From a virus: a stretch of DNA of 45,283 bases. The stretch is taken from the IMG/VR virus record IMGVR_UViG_3300047335_000108, positions 1 to 45,283 of that record; one strand, written 5' to 3'. Every line of letters begins with the position of its first letter. Positions within the stretch are counted from its first letter, which is position 1. Below are positions 31,015 through 40,507 of this stretch, in pieces. The notes beneath the pieces are model-generated. The model ran no database searches. It was not told the DNA's origin and was given only the letters and a program-made list of their open reading frames with translations. The position numbers and the translations under genes were made by a program.

Positions 31015-31514
31015 GGCGCCCTCCACGGCTTGCCCGAGGAGCCGTCGTAGCTACGGGCAGAACTTCGGAGTTGAGACCACCACTCCCAAGTCCCGGTACA
31101 GTCAAAGACGATTTGAAGTTCCTCGAAGCTGCCCCGCCACATCTTTGCATCCCGGGATGCGTTGTCCGCAGTCGTCGCCATCTGCGCGGTGGCCTCGGTT
31201 TGTACGAGCAATTTCTTTTCCAGGTCCTTCACGCGCGCTTCGGCCTGCTCCAGACGCCCCTCGAACGCATCGGCCCGCCCGCGTTGCTGGTTCGATTCGG
31301 CGACGTACGACTCCACATTCGCCGTTTGCGCCTCTCGCAGCGTCGCGATGTGCTGTTTCAGCTCCGCGATCTCGGCGTCCTTCGCGGCGAGTTGGGCGTC
31401 GAGATCGTCTTCGACTGACACGTGATTCCAGCCTCCGGATTTGCACGCGGCAGGCTTGTGTGACTCGAAATCCACGTATCGATGACCCTCGTATTTTCCG
31501 CACGCGCATTTCAT
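31011..31514 (-). CDS. Zinc-motif coiled-coil protein, 167 aa
   Basis: The start is ATG 31514, overlapping the helicase-loader stop. Residues 1-28 (MKCACGKYEGHRYVDFESHK, then PAACKSGGWN) carry Cys/His ligands. Residues 35-130 are a long coiled coil (LDAQLAAKDAEIAELKQHIA, LEQAEARVKDLEKKLLVQTE). The C-terminus contains TGTWEWWSQL. It follows the replication genes; a scaffolding role is only a guess. Confidence 0.6.
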   Translation of the reverse strand: MKCACGKYEGHRYVDFESHKPAACKSGGWNHVSVEDDLDAQLAAKDAEIAELKQHIATLREAQTANVESYVAESNQQRGRADAFEGRLEQAEARVKDLEKKLLVQTEATAQMATTADNASRDAKMWRGSFEELQIVFDCTGTWEWWSQLRSSARSYDGSSGKPWRAP

Positions 31515-32500
31515 CCCGCACCTCCCATGTCGATCCACGTGTCCACGTGTCCTGAGTCTGTCCAAACCCTGGACACCTTCCGCTCGATGTTGCCGCCATA
31601 GCGACCCGCGAACACCGAACGGCCGAGCCCCGTCGTAACCCACGTGGGCCGCTTTTCGTACCGCTCCGTCAGCAGCGACCGAACGATCTCGACCCCCACG
31701 TCTCCCTCGTTCCCGACGTCATCGAGCACGAGCAACGTCGCGCGTCGGGCCTCCGCGACTTCGGGGCACTCCCCTTTGCCAAGCGCCCACGCACGGGCTT
31801 TCCGCTCGAGCGTTTGGATCGCGACGAACACGATGCCCTTCGCCCGAGCCAAATCTTCCACCGGGGCCGCGAGCGACCGTCCCTTCGCGAGCACCACGCG
31901 GGCCATGTACGAGGCGAGCGTGGACTTGTACGCCCCGGTTTGTCCGGAGAGCACGCATGCCCATTGCTTGCGCACAACGGTACCCAGAAGGGTTCGGCGC
32001 GGGTCGGACGCCCGGTAGGCCAAACAGACCCTCGAAAGCCGTCCAGCGGCGTCGTTTCGCGCCGGGTCGGCCCATGCGTACGGCGAGGCGGTGCCCGCGG
32101 CATTCTCGTCGCCCATCGTGTCGAGCCACCAAGCGGAGCGAGCGAGCTCCATCTCGCGGTCGCGCTTTCGTCCGCACGGCTCGCAAAGCGCGGGTCGGAC
32201 CGTCCCATCCCGAAGGTCCTCGGGAATTTCCGTGTCCGCCCCGCAACCAGCGCAGATCCAGATCTTGCAGGTCTCGCATCCCCGGCGAGGCTCCCGCCGG
32301 CGGATGCATGCGGCGCGATGATCCGCGAGCACCTGGACGCCCTGCCGAATCGACGCTTCGAGCTCGGCGAACATATCGGCAAGCTCAAAACGTGCGTCGT
32401 CGCGGACACCCGCAGCGGCGCGAGCCTGGTCCCTGGCGCGGACCCACTCGGGCGACTCCGGGTCCAGGTCGTTCGTATTTTCGGCTGCTGTTCCCATCAC
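31511..32500 (-). CDS. Helicase loader, DnaC-like AAA+ ATPase, 329 aa
   Basis: Loads the replicative helicase. The N-terminal 115 residues have Cys pairs C75/C78, C83/C86 and C106/C109, a zinc region as in DnaC/DnaT-like phage loaders. Walker A is GQTGAYKS (186-193) and Walker B LLVLDD (256-261), followed by GNEGDVGVEIVRSLLTERYE and TWVTTGLGRS as sensor region. It sits directly after the initiator gene and overlaps it by four bases, the classic O-P order of lambdoid phages. Confidence 0.8.
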   Translation of the reverse strand: MMGTAAENTNDLDPESPEWVRARDQARAAAGVRDDARFELADMFAELEASIRQGVQVLADHRAACIRRREPRRGCETCKIWICAGCGADTEIPEDLRDGTVRPALCEPCGRKRDREMELARSAWWLDTMGDENAAGTASPYAWADPARNDAAGRLSRVCLAYRASDPRRTLLGTVVRKQWACVLSGQTGAYKSTLASYMARVVLAKGRSLAAPVEDLARAKGIVFVAIQTLERKARAWALGKGECPEVAEARRATLLVLDDVGNEGDVGVEIVRSLLTERYEKRPTWVTTGLGRSVFAGRYGGNIERKVSRVWTDSGHVDTWIDMGGAG

Positions 32501-33390
32501 CAGTTCTCCTCGCCCGGCGGCAATTTCGACAAGTCATTCGGCGGCGGCGGCGGCAACGCGGCTTGCAGGGGAGCCGCCCCGCGTCGGCCCCCCGAGGCCG
32601 CGAGGGGAATCTTTTCGCGCATCTTCCGCGTTTGCTCATGGCGTGTTTTGTTGGACATCCACCGGATCAGAGCGTCGCGTGGCGAGGGGATCGGCTTGCA
32701 ATTTGCGCGGTGCCAGTCCTCGCATTCGACGGCATCCAGGTCCGTGGGCTCCGCGTAAAAACGCATCCGGCAGGCCTCGACCACGTCGGGCGTCGCAAAC
32801 ACCACGCGAGCCGACGGCGCGGCAACGGGCTGGGTCCCCGATTCGGCGAGGTCCGGCGAAGGGGATGGGGGCTCTGGACCCCGCTCCGCCCCCCCTGCAC
32901 CCCCCAGAGATCCAGAAATCAGATCCAGATCAGAGCCAGAGCCAGAGCCAGGGAATCCTTTCGGATTCCCATTGGCTTCCTCGCGGATTCCGTTTGGATT
33001 CCGATCGGAATCCGGAGGGGAGCTATCTGGATTCCGCTTGGAATCCTTCCGGAGTTTAGCCTCGGCTTTCCGGAGGCGATCCGCTTCTTGCCGAGCCGCG
33101 ACGTCCGCTTTGAGTTCATTCCCCTGCTCGCGATATTTGAGGAGTTCGTATCCGTCTTCACGGAGCGCGAAGAGCCCGACCTCGACGAGGCGCTTGCAAT
33201 GCCGTTCCCCTCGCTCCTTGCCGACGTTGAGGGGCTTCCCGACGTTGCGAAAGGCGATGACCGGGGTGTCCTGCTCTTGATCACGAATGTACGTGAGGAC
33301 GCCGAGCCAGTAGCCCGACGCGGCCTCTCCCGCCTCCTCGAAGCGCTCGTGCCGCCAAATATGGGTGCTCGCCTTGGCGAAGAGTGTCAT
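32497..33390 (-). CDS. Replication initiator, gpO/DnaD-like, 297 aa
   Basis: I use ATG 33390, just after the methyltransferase stop. Residues 1-105 are a winged-helix domain: MTLFAKASTHIWRHERFEEA, YWLGVLTYIRDQEQDTPVIA, GERHCKRLVEVGLFALREDG, with a wing YELLKYREQG. Residues 115-180 are a low-complexity linker encoded by the iteron array (RNPDSSPPDSDRNPNGI and similar). The C-terminal 110 residues include CRMRFYAEPTDLDAVECEDW and a basic helix before a Pro-rich tail. As in lambda O, the origin is probably inside the gene. Confidence 0.75.
   Translation of the reverse strand: MTLFAKASTHIWRHERFEEAGEAASGYWLGVLTYIRDQEQDTPVIAFRNVGKPLNVGKERGERHCKRLVEVGLFALREDGYELLKYREQGNELKADVAARQEADRLRKAEAKLRKDSKRNPDSSPPDSDRNPNGIREEANGNPKGFPGSGSGSDLDLISGSLGGAGGAERGPEPPSPSPDLAESGTQPVAAPSARVVFATPDVVEACRMRFYAEPTDLDAVECEDWHRANCKPIPSPRDALIRWMSNKTRHEQTRKMREKIPLAASGGRRGAAPLQAALPPPPPNDLSKLPPGEENW
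32952..33046. repeat. Iteron array: GGATTCC/GGAATCC half-sites every 11 bp, candidate replication origin
   Basis: Half-sites start at 32952 (GGAATCC), 32963, 32985, 32996 (GGATTCC), 33007 (GGAATCC), 33029 (GGATTCC) and 33040 (GGAATCC), with one-mismatch GGCTTCC at 32974. All positions differ by multiples of 11. The pairs at 32997-33012 and 33030-33045 read GATTCC-N4-GGAATC, the immunity-operator form. A less GC-rich stretch with AGATCCAG/AGAGCC repeats lies next to it (32911-32950). The array lies within the initiator gene, so it is the best origin candidate and may also bind the repressor. Confidence 0.75.
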
Positions 33391-38481: not shown

Positions 38482-39284
38482 AGCGCCGTCACGTCATCCC
38501 TCATCGCGCAGACCTTGCGCAGGATCGACTGCGTTTCAGCTGCCCAGTCGAAGACCACTTCCGAGCATTCCTTTTCGGAATATTTTTTCTGTTTTGCCGC
38601 CGCCTCCGCCTCCGCCGCCGCCGCCTCCGCCTCCGCCGCCGCCGCCGCCGCCGCCGCCTCCGCCTCCGCCGCCGCCTCCGCCTCCGCCGCCGCCGCCGCC
38701 GCCGCCGCCGCCCACCGCGCCGCCTCCGCCTCCGCCGCCGCCGCCGCCGCCTCCGCCTCCGCCGCCGCCCACCGCGCCGCCGCCGCCGCCTCCGCCGCCG
38801 CCGCCGCCGCCCACCGCGCCGCCGCCAAGCGATCGGCTGCATCCTTTAGCCCAGCCGCGCGGAGCGCAGCGACCGCGCACACCCGAACCGCCCAATCCGC
38901 GAACGCGAACGACCGTCGTCGGCGGAGTTGTTGAGACCCCGCCGTGTCAAGGAGGAGATTCTGGATCTCCTCGGGGAATGCGCGCGTGCGCATCTCATCG
39001 TTGGGCATCCGATCGTTGGTCGTCCGGACGAACCGCCCGATTACGGGACAGATGCACGGATGAGCGTCGGTCCAATTCGCGACGATCTCTTGATGGGGGC
39101 GACCGTCGCGCAGCATCTTGCGCACGTACGCCGCCTCCATGGCGCACGTCCCCTTGATCTGCCCGGTCCCCCCGGGACTATGCCCGCCGTGCCGGATCGT
39201 CTTCAAGAGCTCCGCATAGTCGACCCCCGGATCGACCGGCGCGCTCTCCTCGACGCTTACCTTTTCGCTCAACGACTCGTTCAT
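38478..39284 (-). CDS. Conserved phage protein with long alanine-repeat tail, 268 aa
   Basis: Residues 45-150 match a family widespread in phages and actinobacteria: GTCAMEAAYVRKMLRDGRPH, DAHPCICPVIGRFVRTTNDR, MPNDEMRTRAFPEEIQNLLL, ADWAVRVCAVAALRAAGL. After residue 152 the protein becomes an Ala/Glu helix with RWAAA blocks for about 78 residues, encoded by GCN triplets. A final part (KKYSEKECSEVVFDWAAETQ) follows. The role is unknown; the Ala segment may expand or contract by slippage. Confidence 0.7.
   Translation of the reverse strand: MNESLSEKVSVEESAPVDPGVDYAELLKTIRHGGHSPGGTGQIKGTCAMEAAYVRKMLRDGRPHQEIVANWTDAHPCICPVIGRFVRTTNDRMPNDEMRTRAFPEEIQNLLLDTAGSQQLRRRRSFAFADWAVRVCAVAALRAAGLKDAADRLAAARWAAAAAAEAAAAARWAAAEAEAAAAAAEAEAARWAAAAAAAAAEAEAAAEAEAAAAAAAAEAEAAAAEAEAAAKQKKYSEKECSEVVFDWAAETQSILRKVCAMRDDVTAL
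38598..38825. repeat. GCC/TCC trinucleotide repeat tract
   Basis: About 230 bp of nearly uninterrupted triplets (GCC, TCC, ACC on the + strand; GGC, GGA, GCG read as Ala and Glu codons on the minus strand) with three CCCACCGCGCC interruptions that encode Arg-Trp. It can slip in replication, altering protein length in steps of one residue. Several other frames across it read as poly-Pro or poly-Gly and are not genes. Confidence 0.85.
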
Positions 39285-39617: not shown

Positions 39618-39893
39618 CTATGCCGCGCGCGCTGCTGGTGGAACAAATCTCCTCTTCGGCGGAAGAGCCCACATCTGTTGCTGGATCCCAAACACCGCCG
39701 CAAATCGCGATGCCAGTTCGCGACCCGCCTTTCGATCCCCATACAGGATCCTCCAGATCGCGGACGGTTGGACTCCGACCCGAATCGCCGCCGAGGGAAC
39801 CGAGAGGTCGTTGCGATCAAGAAACAGCCAAAGCAGTCGCGATGCTTCGCAGAACTTTGGGCCTAGAACCAAACGATGCGACCGGTCACCCAT
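39618..39893 (-). CDS. Cro-like HTH regulator, 91 aa
   Basis: Starting at ATG 39893, residues 18-62 form a Cro/CI HTH: LWLFLDRNDLSVPSAAIRVG, VQPSAIWRILYGDRKAGREL, ASRFAAVFGIQQ. The gene begins at the leftward operator-promoter (39900-39928), just six bases from the -10-like CACCAT, so the mRNA may be leaderless. Position and size fit Cro, opposing the divergent repressor. The C-terminal QMWALPPKRRFVPPAARAA is basic. Confidence 0.7.
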   Translation of the reverse strand: MGDRSHRLVLGPKFCEASRLLWLFLDRNDLSVPSAAIRVGVQPSAIWRILYGDRKAGRELASRFAAVFGIQQQMWALPPKRRFVPPAARAA

Positions 39894-39899
39894 GGCGCG

Positions 39900-39928
39900 A
39901 TGGTGATTCCGTTTGGAATCGGTGTCAA
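39900..39928 (-). promoter_or_regulatory. Leftward early promoter with operator in spacer
   Basis: On the minus strand TTGACA (39928-39923) and CACCAT (39905-39900) are 17 bases apart. The spacer contains the palindrome GATTCC-N4-GGAATC (39905-39920). The arrangement equals that of the rightward promoter near 40479. Repressor bound here would block transcription toward the Cro-like gene, integrase and replication genes. A variant palindrome GTTCC-TTTC-GGAAC lies at 39951-39964 near the repressor start. Confidence 0.75.
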
Positions 39929-39973
39929 CACGAATCTGTAGCGCCGGGCAGTTCCTTTCGGAACCATGTAGGT

Positions 39974-40450
39974 ATGGCCGAAAAGGTTGAGATGACGGTG
40001 GGCGATCGGATCGCCTACGCACGGAGCGTCGCCAAGATTTCCACCAACGAGCTTCAGCGTCGAATTAGCGCCAAGCCGCGACGAAACGACAAGAAGCCCG
40101 GATCGAGTGGCAGTGTCAGTAAATACGAGAGCGGATTCATGAACCCGAAGCCGAAGGCCCTCGAAAGGCTTGCTGCTGCGCTGGGTGTAGAAAAGGCATG
40201 GCTTACGTACGGATCTGGGCCAATGACGCCTAACGGCGATCCGGGTCCGTCGCCCTGCACCGACGACGATCTTGCGACGACTCTCCGTTACTTCCCGCAC
40301 CGGTGGAAGAAGGACATCCGTCACCAGGCGGAAACGTGGGGCACAACGTCCCGCGTCGATAAGTCGATGCCCGTGGGCGGATGGAAGCGCGCGCTCGACG
40401 AGCTGACGGTGGTGTTTCACTCGAAGAAGCCCCCCAAAACGGAACCGTAG
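39974..40450 (+). CDS. Phage repressor, Xre-type HTH, 158 aa
   Basis: The ATG at 39974 opens MAEKVEMTVGDRIAYARSVA. An HTH follows (KISTNELQRRISAKP, SVSKYESGFMNPKPKALERL, AAALGVEKAWLTYGSGP), the Xre/CI pattern, with an unusual basic loop (RRNDKKPGSSG) between the helices. The C-terminal 75 residues (ATTLRYFPHRWKKDIRHQAE, KRALDELTVVF) contain no Ser-Lys LexA/CI peptidase dyad that I can see. The gene lies between two outward promoters whose operators it probably binds. ATG 39989 is an alternative start. Confidence 0.75.
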   Translation: MAEKVEMTVGDRIAYARSVAKISTNELQRRISAKPRRNDKKPGSSGSVSKYESGFMNPKPKALERLAAALGVEKAWLTYGSGPMTPNGDPGPSPCTDDDLATTLRYFPHRWKKDIRHQAETWGTTSRVDKSMPVGGWKRALDELTVVFHSKKPPKTEP

Positions 40451-40478: not shown

Positions 40479-40507
40479 TTGACACCGATTCCAATTGGAA
40501 TCACTAT
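40479..40507 (+). promoter_or_regulatory. Rightward early promoter with operator in spacer
   Basis: TTGACA (40479-40484) and CACTAT (40502-40507) are 17 bases apart with GATTCC-AATT-GGAATC (40487-40502) inside. The segment TTGACACCGATTCCAA is identical in the leftward promoter. A strong AAGGAGG follows before the ATG at 40528. It would start the recombination operon. Confidence 0.8.

Follow-up and report, generated by a model that had tools for sequence, protein, structure and literature searches.

The locus considered here raises the question of why a phased series of short repeats, located inside a replication initiator gene, should share its half-site with the candidate operators of an immunity region in the same phage genome. 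In bacteriophage lambda the operators and the origin iterons are unrelated sequences, and the gene of the helicase loader lies adjacent to the O gene. The window, that is the whole stretch of DNA that was analysed, is an entire IMG/VR virus record of 45,283 bases, and the following features are found at the repeat locus:

32952..33046, no strand assigned: iteron array of GGAWTCC units phased at 11 bp (seven exact units, one near-match and one empty slot; the homologous genes of 32 other contigs have the same array)
32997..33012, no strand assigned: perfect operator-like palindrome in the array, GATTCCGATCGGAATC (exact-motif scan)
33030..33045, no strand assigned: perfect operator-like palindrome in the array, GATTCCGCTTGGAATC (exact-motif scan)
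32904..32951, minus strand: 6-bp tandem tract adjoining the array (CTGGCT CTGGCT CTGGCT CTGATC TGG... on the coding strand; best 24-position match at lag 6, 19/24)
32497..33390, minus strand: replication initiator gene, 297 amino acids from the ATG at 33390, with an N-terminal winged-helix domain, an array-encoded linker and a C-terminal part (PHROG 2447, AlphaFold and family alignment)
31511..32500, minus strand: gene of a DnaC-like helicase loader, which immediately follows the initiator gene downstream (PHROG 50, E 7.6e-9; AAA_25 just under the Pfam cut-off)

The seven exact units and one near-match reported in a preliminary description of this DNA were recovered at 32952-33046. Exact GGATTCC or GGAATCC units start at 32952, 32963, 32985, 32996, 33007, 33029 and 33040; position 32974 reads GGCTTCC, with one mismatch, and no unit occupies the slot at 33018. 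Seven units in nine slots make this the best 11-bp lattice of the window, where every other period yields one unit, with the exception of 22 bp (four units, a harmonic), and one unit was also the maximum in all 60 first-order Markov simulations. GGATTCC by itself is not enriched (12 seen, about 10 expected), and the signal of the array is its phasing and not the count of the word. The 7-mer GGA-W-TCC is nearly its own complement, hence the "orientation" of a unit hangs on a single A/T base, and among neighbouring pairs of units just two make a perfect dyad. As the units rotate through reading frames 0, 1 and 2, the constraint acts on the DNA and not on the protein, which rules out a repeat at the protein level; the array belongs to the DNA, and the protein accommodates it within a linker.

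The initiator gene is recognized by profile search, in which residues 11-260 match PHROG 2447, "replication initiation protein", at E 8e-10, and two of its relatives match the same family at 1e-29 and 2e-26. No Pfam family was found for it at E 1, and among nine relatives tested none matched RepA_N (seven had no Pfam match, one a weak DUF and one DnaB_2). Close relatives of the window protein are lacking or very weak in IMG/VR, GTDB and phage records, and a search by sequence found no relative with a solved structure. Residues 1-112 are modelled by AlphaFold as a winged helix with a pLDDT of 95.4, and in a structural comparison the top four rows for this domain are RepA_N initiator domains, one of them in a Rep-DNA complex. 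These rows have Z values of 6.3-6.8, which alone are below the conclusive level, and an rmsd of about 3 A over 82-85 residues; a kinship of the predicted fold with RepA_N initiators is suggested by this and not proven. Viral matches include several replisome organizers along with helix-turn-helix proteins.

Which protein goes with the array was addressed by a scan of IMG/VR for GGAWTCC repeated three times in a row in 11-bp steps, a pattern that holds no protein information. The scan returned 69 other viral contigs, and in 32 of these the array lies inside a homologue of the window initiator, as judged with the array-encoded residues masked; with the same masking, 42 array loci encode such a homologue. 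Several of the remaining 11-bp arrays sit in other phage initiator families or in DnaD-like families. The corresponding 10-bp pattern gave 15 contigs and not one initiator homologue, and a 12-bp pattern placed 5 of 45 matches in initiator homologues, one of these loci having an 11-bp array as well, which suggests that 12-bp versions of the array exist. The 12-bp pattern was rejected as a clean null, for a 12-bp period stays in frame and picks up coding repeats, and it also catches initiators phased at 12 bp; the 10-bp pattern served as the control in its place. A larger count, 59 of the 69 contigs, was obtained by iterating on unmasked reading frames and was discarded because array-encoded peptides inflate it. 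Initiator homologues with GGAWTCC units spaced at 12 bp and not at 11 bp were seen at four loci.

In GTDB the array pattern falls within an initiator homologue in 6 of 80 matches, and the matches consist largely of an intergenic repeat of Nocardia. In many Nocardia genomes (more than 20 matches), intergenic-looking GTGGATTCCTCGAGGAATCC repeats recur at 11 bp, often adjoining TGTGCACA-like words and sometimes occurring twice about 165 bp apart; they lie outside initiator homologues and have the look of an extragenic repeat family. On three Candidatus Competibacter phosphatis contigs, long arrays of GGAWTCC phased at 11 bp, some reaching ten or more units, overlap no initiator homologue.

A second sample was blind to the array, its members being collected by the N-terminal domain of the initiator alone (79 usable loci). 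GGAWTCC lattices scoring at least 3 were found at 11 bp in eight of these loci and at the 22-bp harmonic in four, with zero or one at other periods; strong lattices of any unit were found at 11 bp in 17 of the 79, at 12 bp in six, and at other periods in none or one. By these scans a clear array is present in a minority of the relatives, and GGAWTCC itself in only about 10 of the 79. The unit word varies by subfamily and includes GGAWTCC, CACGACG, GCGACAC, GAAGCAA and GAAGTTC. Among named phages, Streptomyces phage Darolandstone has CGAWTCG at 11 bp, Streptococcus phage Javan291 has TGGCAACC at 11 bp and Gordonia phage UmaThurman has GAACGTTC at about 12 bp, and the same scan detected no clear array in Microbacterium phage Appa or in phage M102. 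A family that keeps the phase and changes the word is as expected if its own DNA-binding domain reads the array. Phased iterons just after the N-terminal domain of PHROG 2447 members are a feature proposed here, outside the definition given by the library, and the window protein has them. Overall, the follow-up analysis supports reading the locus as iterons arrayed within an initiator gene, comparable to those in lambda O, and these iterons most likely belong to the initiator that the gene encodes.

The tandem tract that adjoins the array has counterparts in most relatives, in which tandem repeats of 5 or 6 bp, such as AACCAA, CCCAT, GACAA or GTCTGT, come immediately after the array when the coding strand is read. 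In the array-blind sample a strong 5- or 6-bp tract is found downstream in 37% of loci and upstream in none. This tract is a candidate element for unwinding or helicase loading, and its role may be comparable, by analogy, to that of DnaA-trio repeats. At about 40 loci, across unrelated unit sequences, a 5- or 6-bp tract follows the iterons.

The second region that contains the half-site is arranged as follows:

39618..39893, minus strand: small divergent helix-turn-helix gene, 91 amino acids, a Cro-like candidate and first gene after the OL promoter (weak HTH matches)
39905..39920, no strand assigned: candidate operator OL, GATTCCGTTTGGAATC, lying between the -35 and -10 elements of a promoter-like site that points leftward (TTGACA-N17-CACCAT on the minus strand; motif scan)
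39949..39966, no strand assigned: a third operator-like dyad, CAGTTCCTTTCGGAACCA, weaker than the other two, a short way upstream of the repressor gene and missing from the preliminary description (TTCC-N4-GGAA core)
39974..40450, plus strand: XRE-type helix-turn-helix gene, 158 amino acids, candidate immunity repressor (PHROG 4 / 2328 "transcriptional repressor", E 3e-9; HTH_3 above cut-off)
40487..40502, no strand assigned: candidate operator OR, GATTCCAATTGGAATC, likewise between the -35 and -10 elements, here of a promoter-like site that points rightward (TTGACA-N17-CACTAT; motif scan)

The XRE gene is thus placed between OL and OR, each of which is located within a -35/-10 spacer, in a layout of the lambda type, and the third dyad is 45 bp from OL. 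OL lies upstream of the minus-strand run of genes that holds the initiator gene, placing an inverted repeat of the iteron half-site at the promoter of that run, and the initiator gene would belong to one transcript from the OL promoter. Looking for this operator within promoters gave no match at the exact 2-bp spacing, and 17 unrelated places when the spacing was relaxed. No repressor relative with known operators was found in IMG/VR, GTDB or phage records, where close relatives are lacking or very weak, and the repressor, modelled without an alignment, reached a pLDDT of 37, too low for the model to be usable.

The sharing of the half-site between the two regions is non-random. Four copies of the palindrome GATTCC-N4-GGAATC are present in the window (32997, 33030, 39905 and 40487) against 0.02 expected: the first two lie in the array, the last two in the immunity promoters, and the rest of the 45 kb has none. 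Its core, TTCC-N4-GGAA, occurs five times against 0.77 expected, all five in the array or the immunity region, and the GATTCC dyad is the only dyad common to both promoter regions. From the four sites and the confinement of all five cores to two regions it follows that the sharing is real, and a reading that might have failed had the motif been equally frequent elsewhere stands. The preliminary description had called the array pairs exactly of the operator form, which holds for the inner 6 bp and fails for the 7-mer: the outer base is G in 8 of 8 array units and in none of 6 operator half-sites, where it is Y in all six, a contrast with an effective n of about 4 (p 0.002), as OL and OR share their flanks. 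This contrast may reflect promoter context. Operator half-sites are always inverted, unlike the units of the array.

With respect to conservation, the array recurs across the family and its sharing with operators does not. Among the matches listed for relatives with GGAWTCC arrays, GATTCC-N4-GGAATC is found in or near the arrays and none clearly outside the initiator region, and in named relatives with other units the iteron units are not repeated in the immunity regions. The link between operators and iterons is therefore private to the window phage, as far as the searched collections show, and exceeds chance; a coupling of the array to immunity would be a credible property of this one phage.

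The explanation that we favour, with a little over an even chance of being right, is that the array comprises origin iterons inside the gene of their own initiator, and that OL and OR are operators of the XRE repressor and/or the Cro-like protein, the specificities of which would overlap with that of the initiator. In one alternative the array would be bound chiefly by the repressor or the Cro-like protein, as a filament, which the preliminary description had put forward, or as a replication silencer, and would not be an initiator site; its appeal lies in the two perfect array palindromes that match OL and OR. A close relative of the window repressor is nearly absent from array-bearing relatives (one weak match in 50), and arrays of the same kind, in the same gene family, are present in dozens of phages without it, which indicates that the repressor is not the primary ligand and that the initiator is the likely reader. 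Given in addition that a perfect dyad is restricted to two adjacent unit pairs, and that the 11-bp phase persists in other initiator subfamilies whose units differ in sequence, binding chiefly by repressor or Cro-like protein is highly improbable. It is also rather unlikely that the match between operators and iterons is a coincidence involving no cross-binding by any protein: its absence from every relative examined, so that no conservation supports a function, and the difference in the outer base speak for coincidence, but the number of exact 16-mers and the confinement of all core sites to the same two regions speak against it.

The identity of the protein at OL and OR is the harder choice. 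The initiator itself might bind there, shutting off early genes and autoregulating the leftward operon that apparently holds its own gene, and this is the most parsimonious account, as the array motif goes with this family of initiators and its half-site recurs, with unchanged spacing, in the promoters; the F plasmid RepE provides a precedent (PMC13028717). By comparison, two proteins converging on one 6-bp half-site and its spacing, as the favoured explanation demands, is less parsimonious. However, promoter control would be no trait of the family, since among the matches listed no relative with GGAWTCC arrays has the palindrome clearly outside its initiator region and named relatives with other units do not have these in their immunity regions, the repressor would be left with no obvious operator at the lytic promoters, and the outer base differs between operators and iterons. 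A regulator distinct from the initiator is somewhat favoured because OL and OR stand on either side of the XRE gene, as is usual for operators, and because the outer G of the iterons is missing from their half-sites; initiator binding at OL and OR is thus considered a tentative, minority alternative.

In the favoured explanation, for which we infer every binding event, the array would be the iteron cluster of a replication origin, lying within the gene of its own binding protein, the initiator. The N-terminal winged helix of the initiator would probably dock on one GGAWTCC unit after another, in steps of about one helical turn, and the initiator would then open the DNA, or load, at the adjacent 6-bp tandem tract and recruit the DnaC-like loader encoded next door. 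At the promoters, OL and OR, as dyads of the iteron half-site between -35 and -10, would serve as operators of the XRE repressor and/or the Cro-like protein. Such overlap could also let the repressor of a lysogen sit on both perfect palindromes of the origin, and let the initiator bind at OL and OR when infection is well advanced. A stronger proposal, that one half-site serves replication and lysogeny together, with the repressor silencing the origin at the array palindromes and the accumulating initiator shutting OL and OR, is conceivable yet doubtful; if true, the lysis-lysogeny decision and the firing of the origin would be competing occupancies of one set of sites. If either form of cross-binding is true, a lysogeny switch and a replication origin that are separate in lambda would be wired to the same DNA word.

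Several known systems resemble parts of this arrangement. Ori-lambda has four longer iterons, each an inverted repeat, inside the O gene and beside an AT-rich region (PMC7466680). The window iterons are likewise inside the initiator gene, with a unit that is an inverted repeat and a loader gene adjacent, but they are 7-bp units spaced at one turn next to a 6-bp tandem tract. The F plasmid RepE binds the iterons of oriS and, as a dimer, inverted repeats before repE (PMC13028717); as in the window, origin repeats and promoter inverted repeats are related by one half-site, whereas in F a single protein has been shown at both sites and the window has two separate regulator genes beside its operators. 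In the staphylococcal plasmid pSK41 the origin lies inside rep, the N-terminal winged helix of Rep binds the boxes and the origin-encoded linker is dispensable, and RepA_N initiators of this type are structurally related to DnaD (PMC5703833). Here the repeats are also central in the initiator gene and the array DNA encodes a linker between N- and C-terminal parts, and by analogy the window system appears to work as pSK41 Rep does. In contrast, the window initiator is not RepA_N by Pfam, its units are short (7 bp at 11 bp), and the window is a phage with an immunity switch and not a plasmid. Closest by protein family are the PHROG 2447 phages (Gordonia phages UmaThurman and Dardanus, Microbacterium phage Appa and Streptomyces phage Darolandstone), several of which show units phased at one turn at the same position of the gene; these differ in that the units vary, Appa is without a clear array and the immunity regions are without iteron units.

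The origin-type iteron array is a widespread pattern for which no description was found in the open literature searched, and no earlier report of the 11-bp array was found there either, most subscription journals being outside its coverage. Its DNA signature, 7-bp units at 11 bp in a winged-helix initiator gene followed by a 5- to 6-bp tandem tract, points to candidate origins in many phages where the initiator has no annotation beyond hypothetical or HTH protein. Elsewhere in the window, a gene for a DnaA domain IV protein (PF08299; 35040-35468, minus strand) lies upstream of the initiator gene in the same direction and might encode a second origin-binding protein. A long low-complexity stretch at 38501-38842 has several frames open as poly-Ala/Glu, poly-Pro or poly-Gly.
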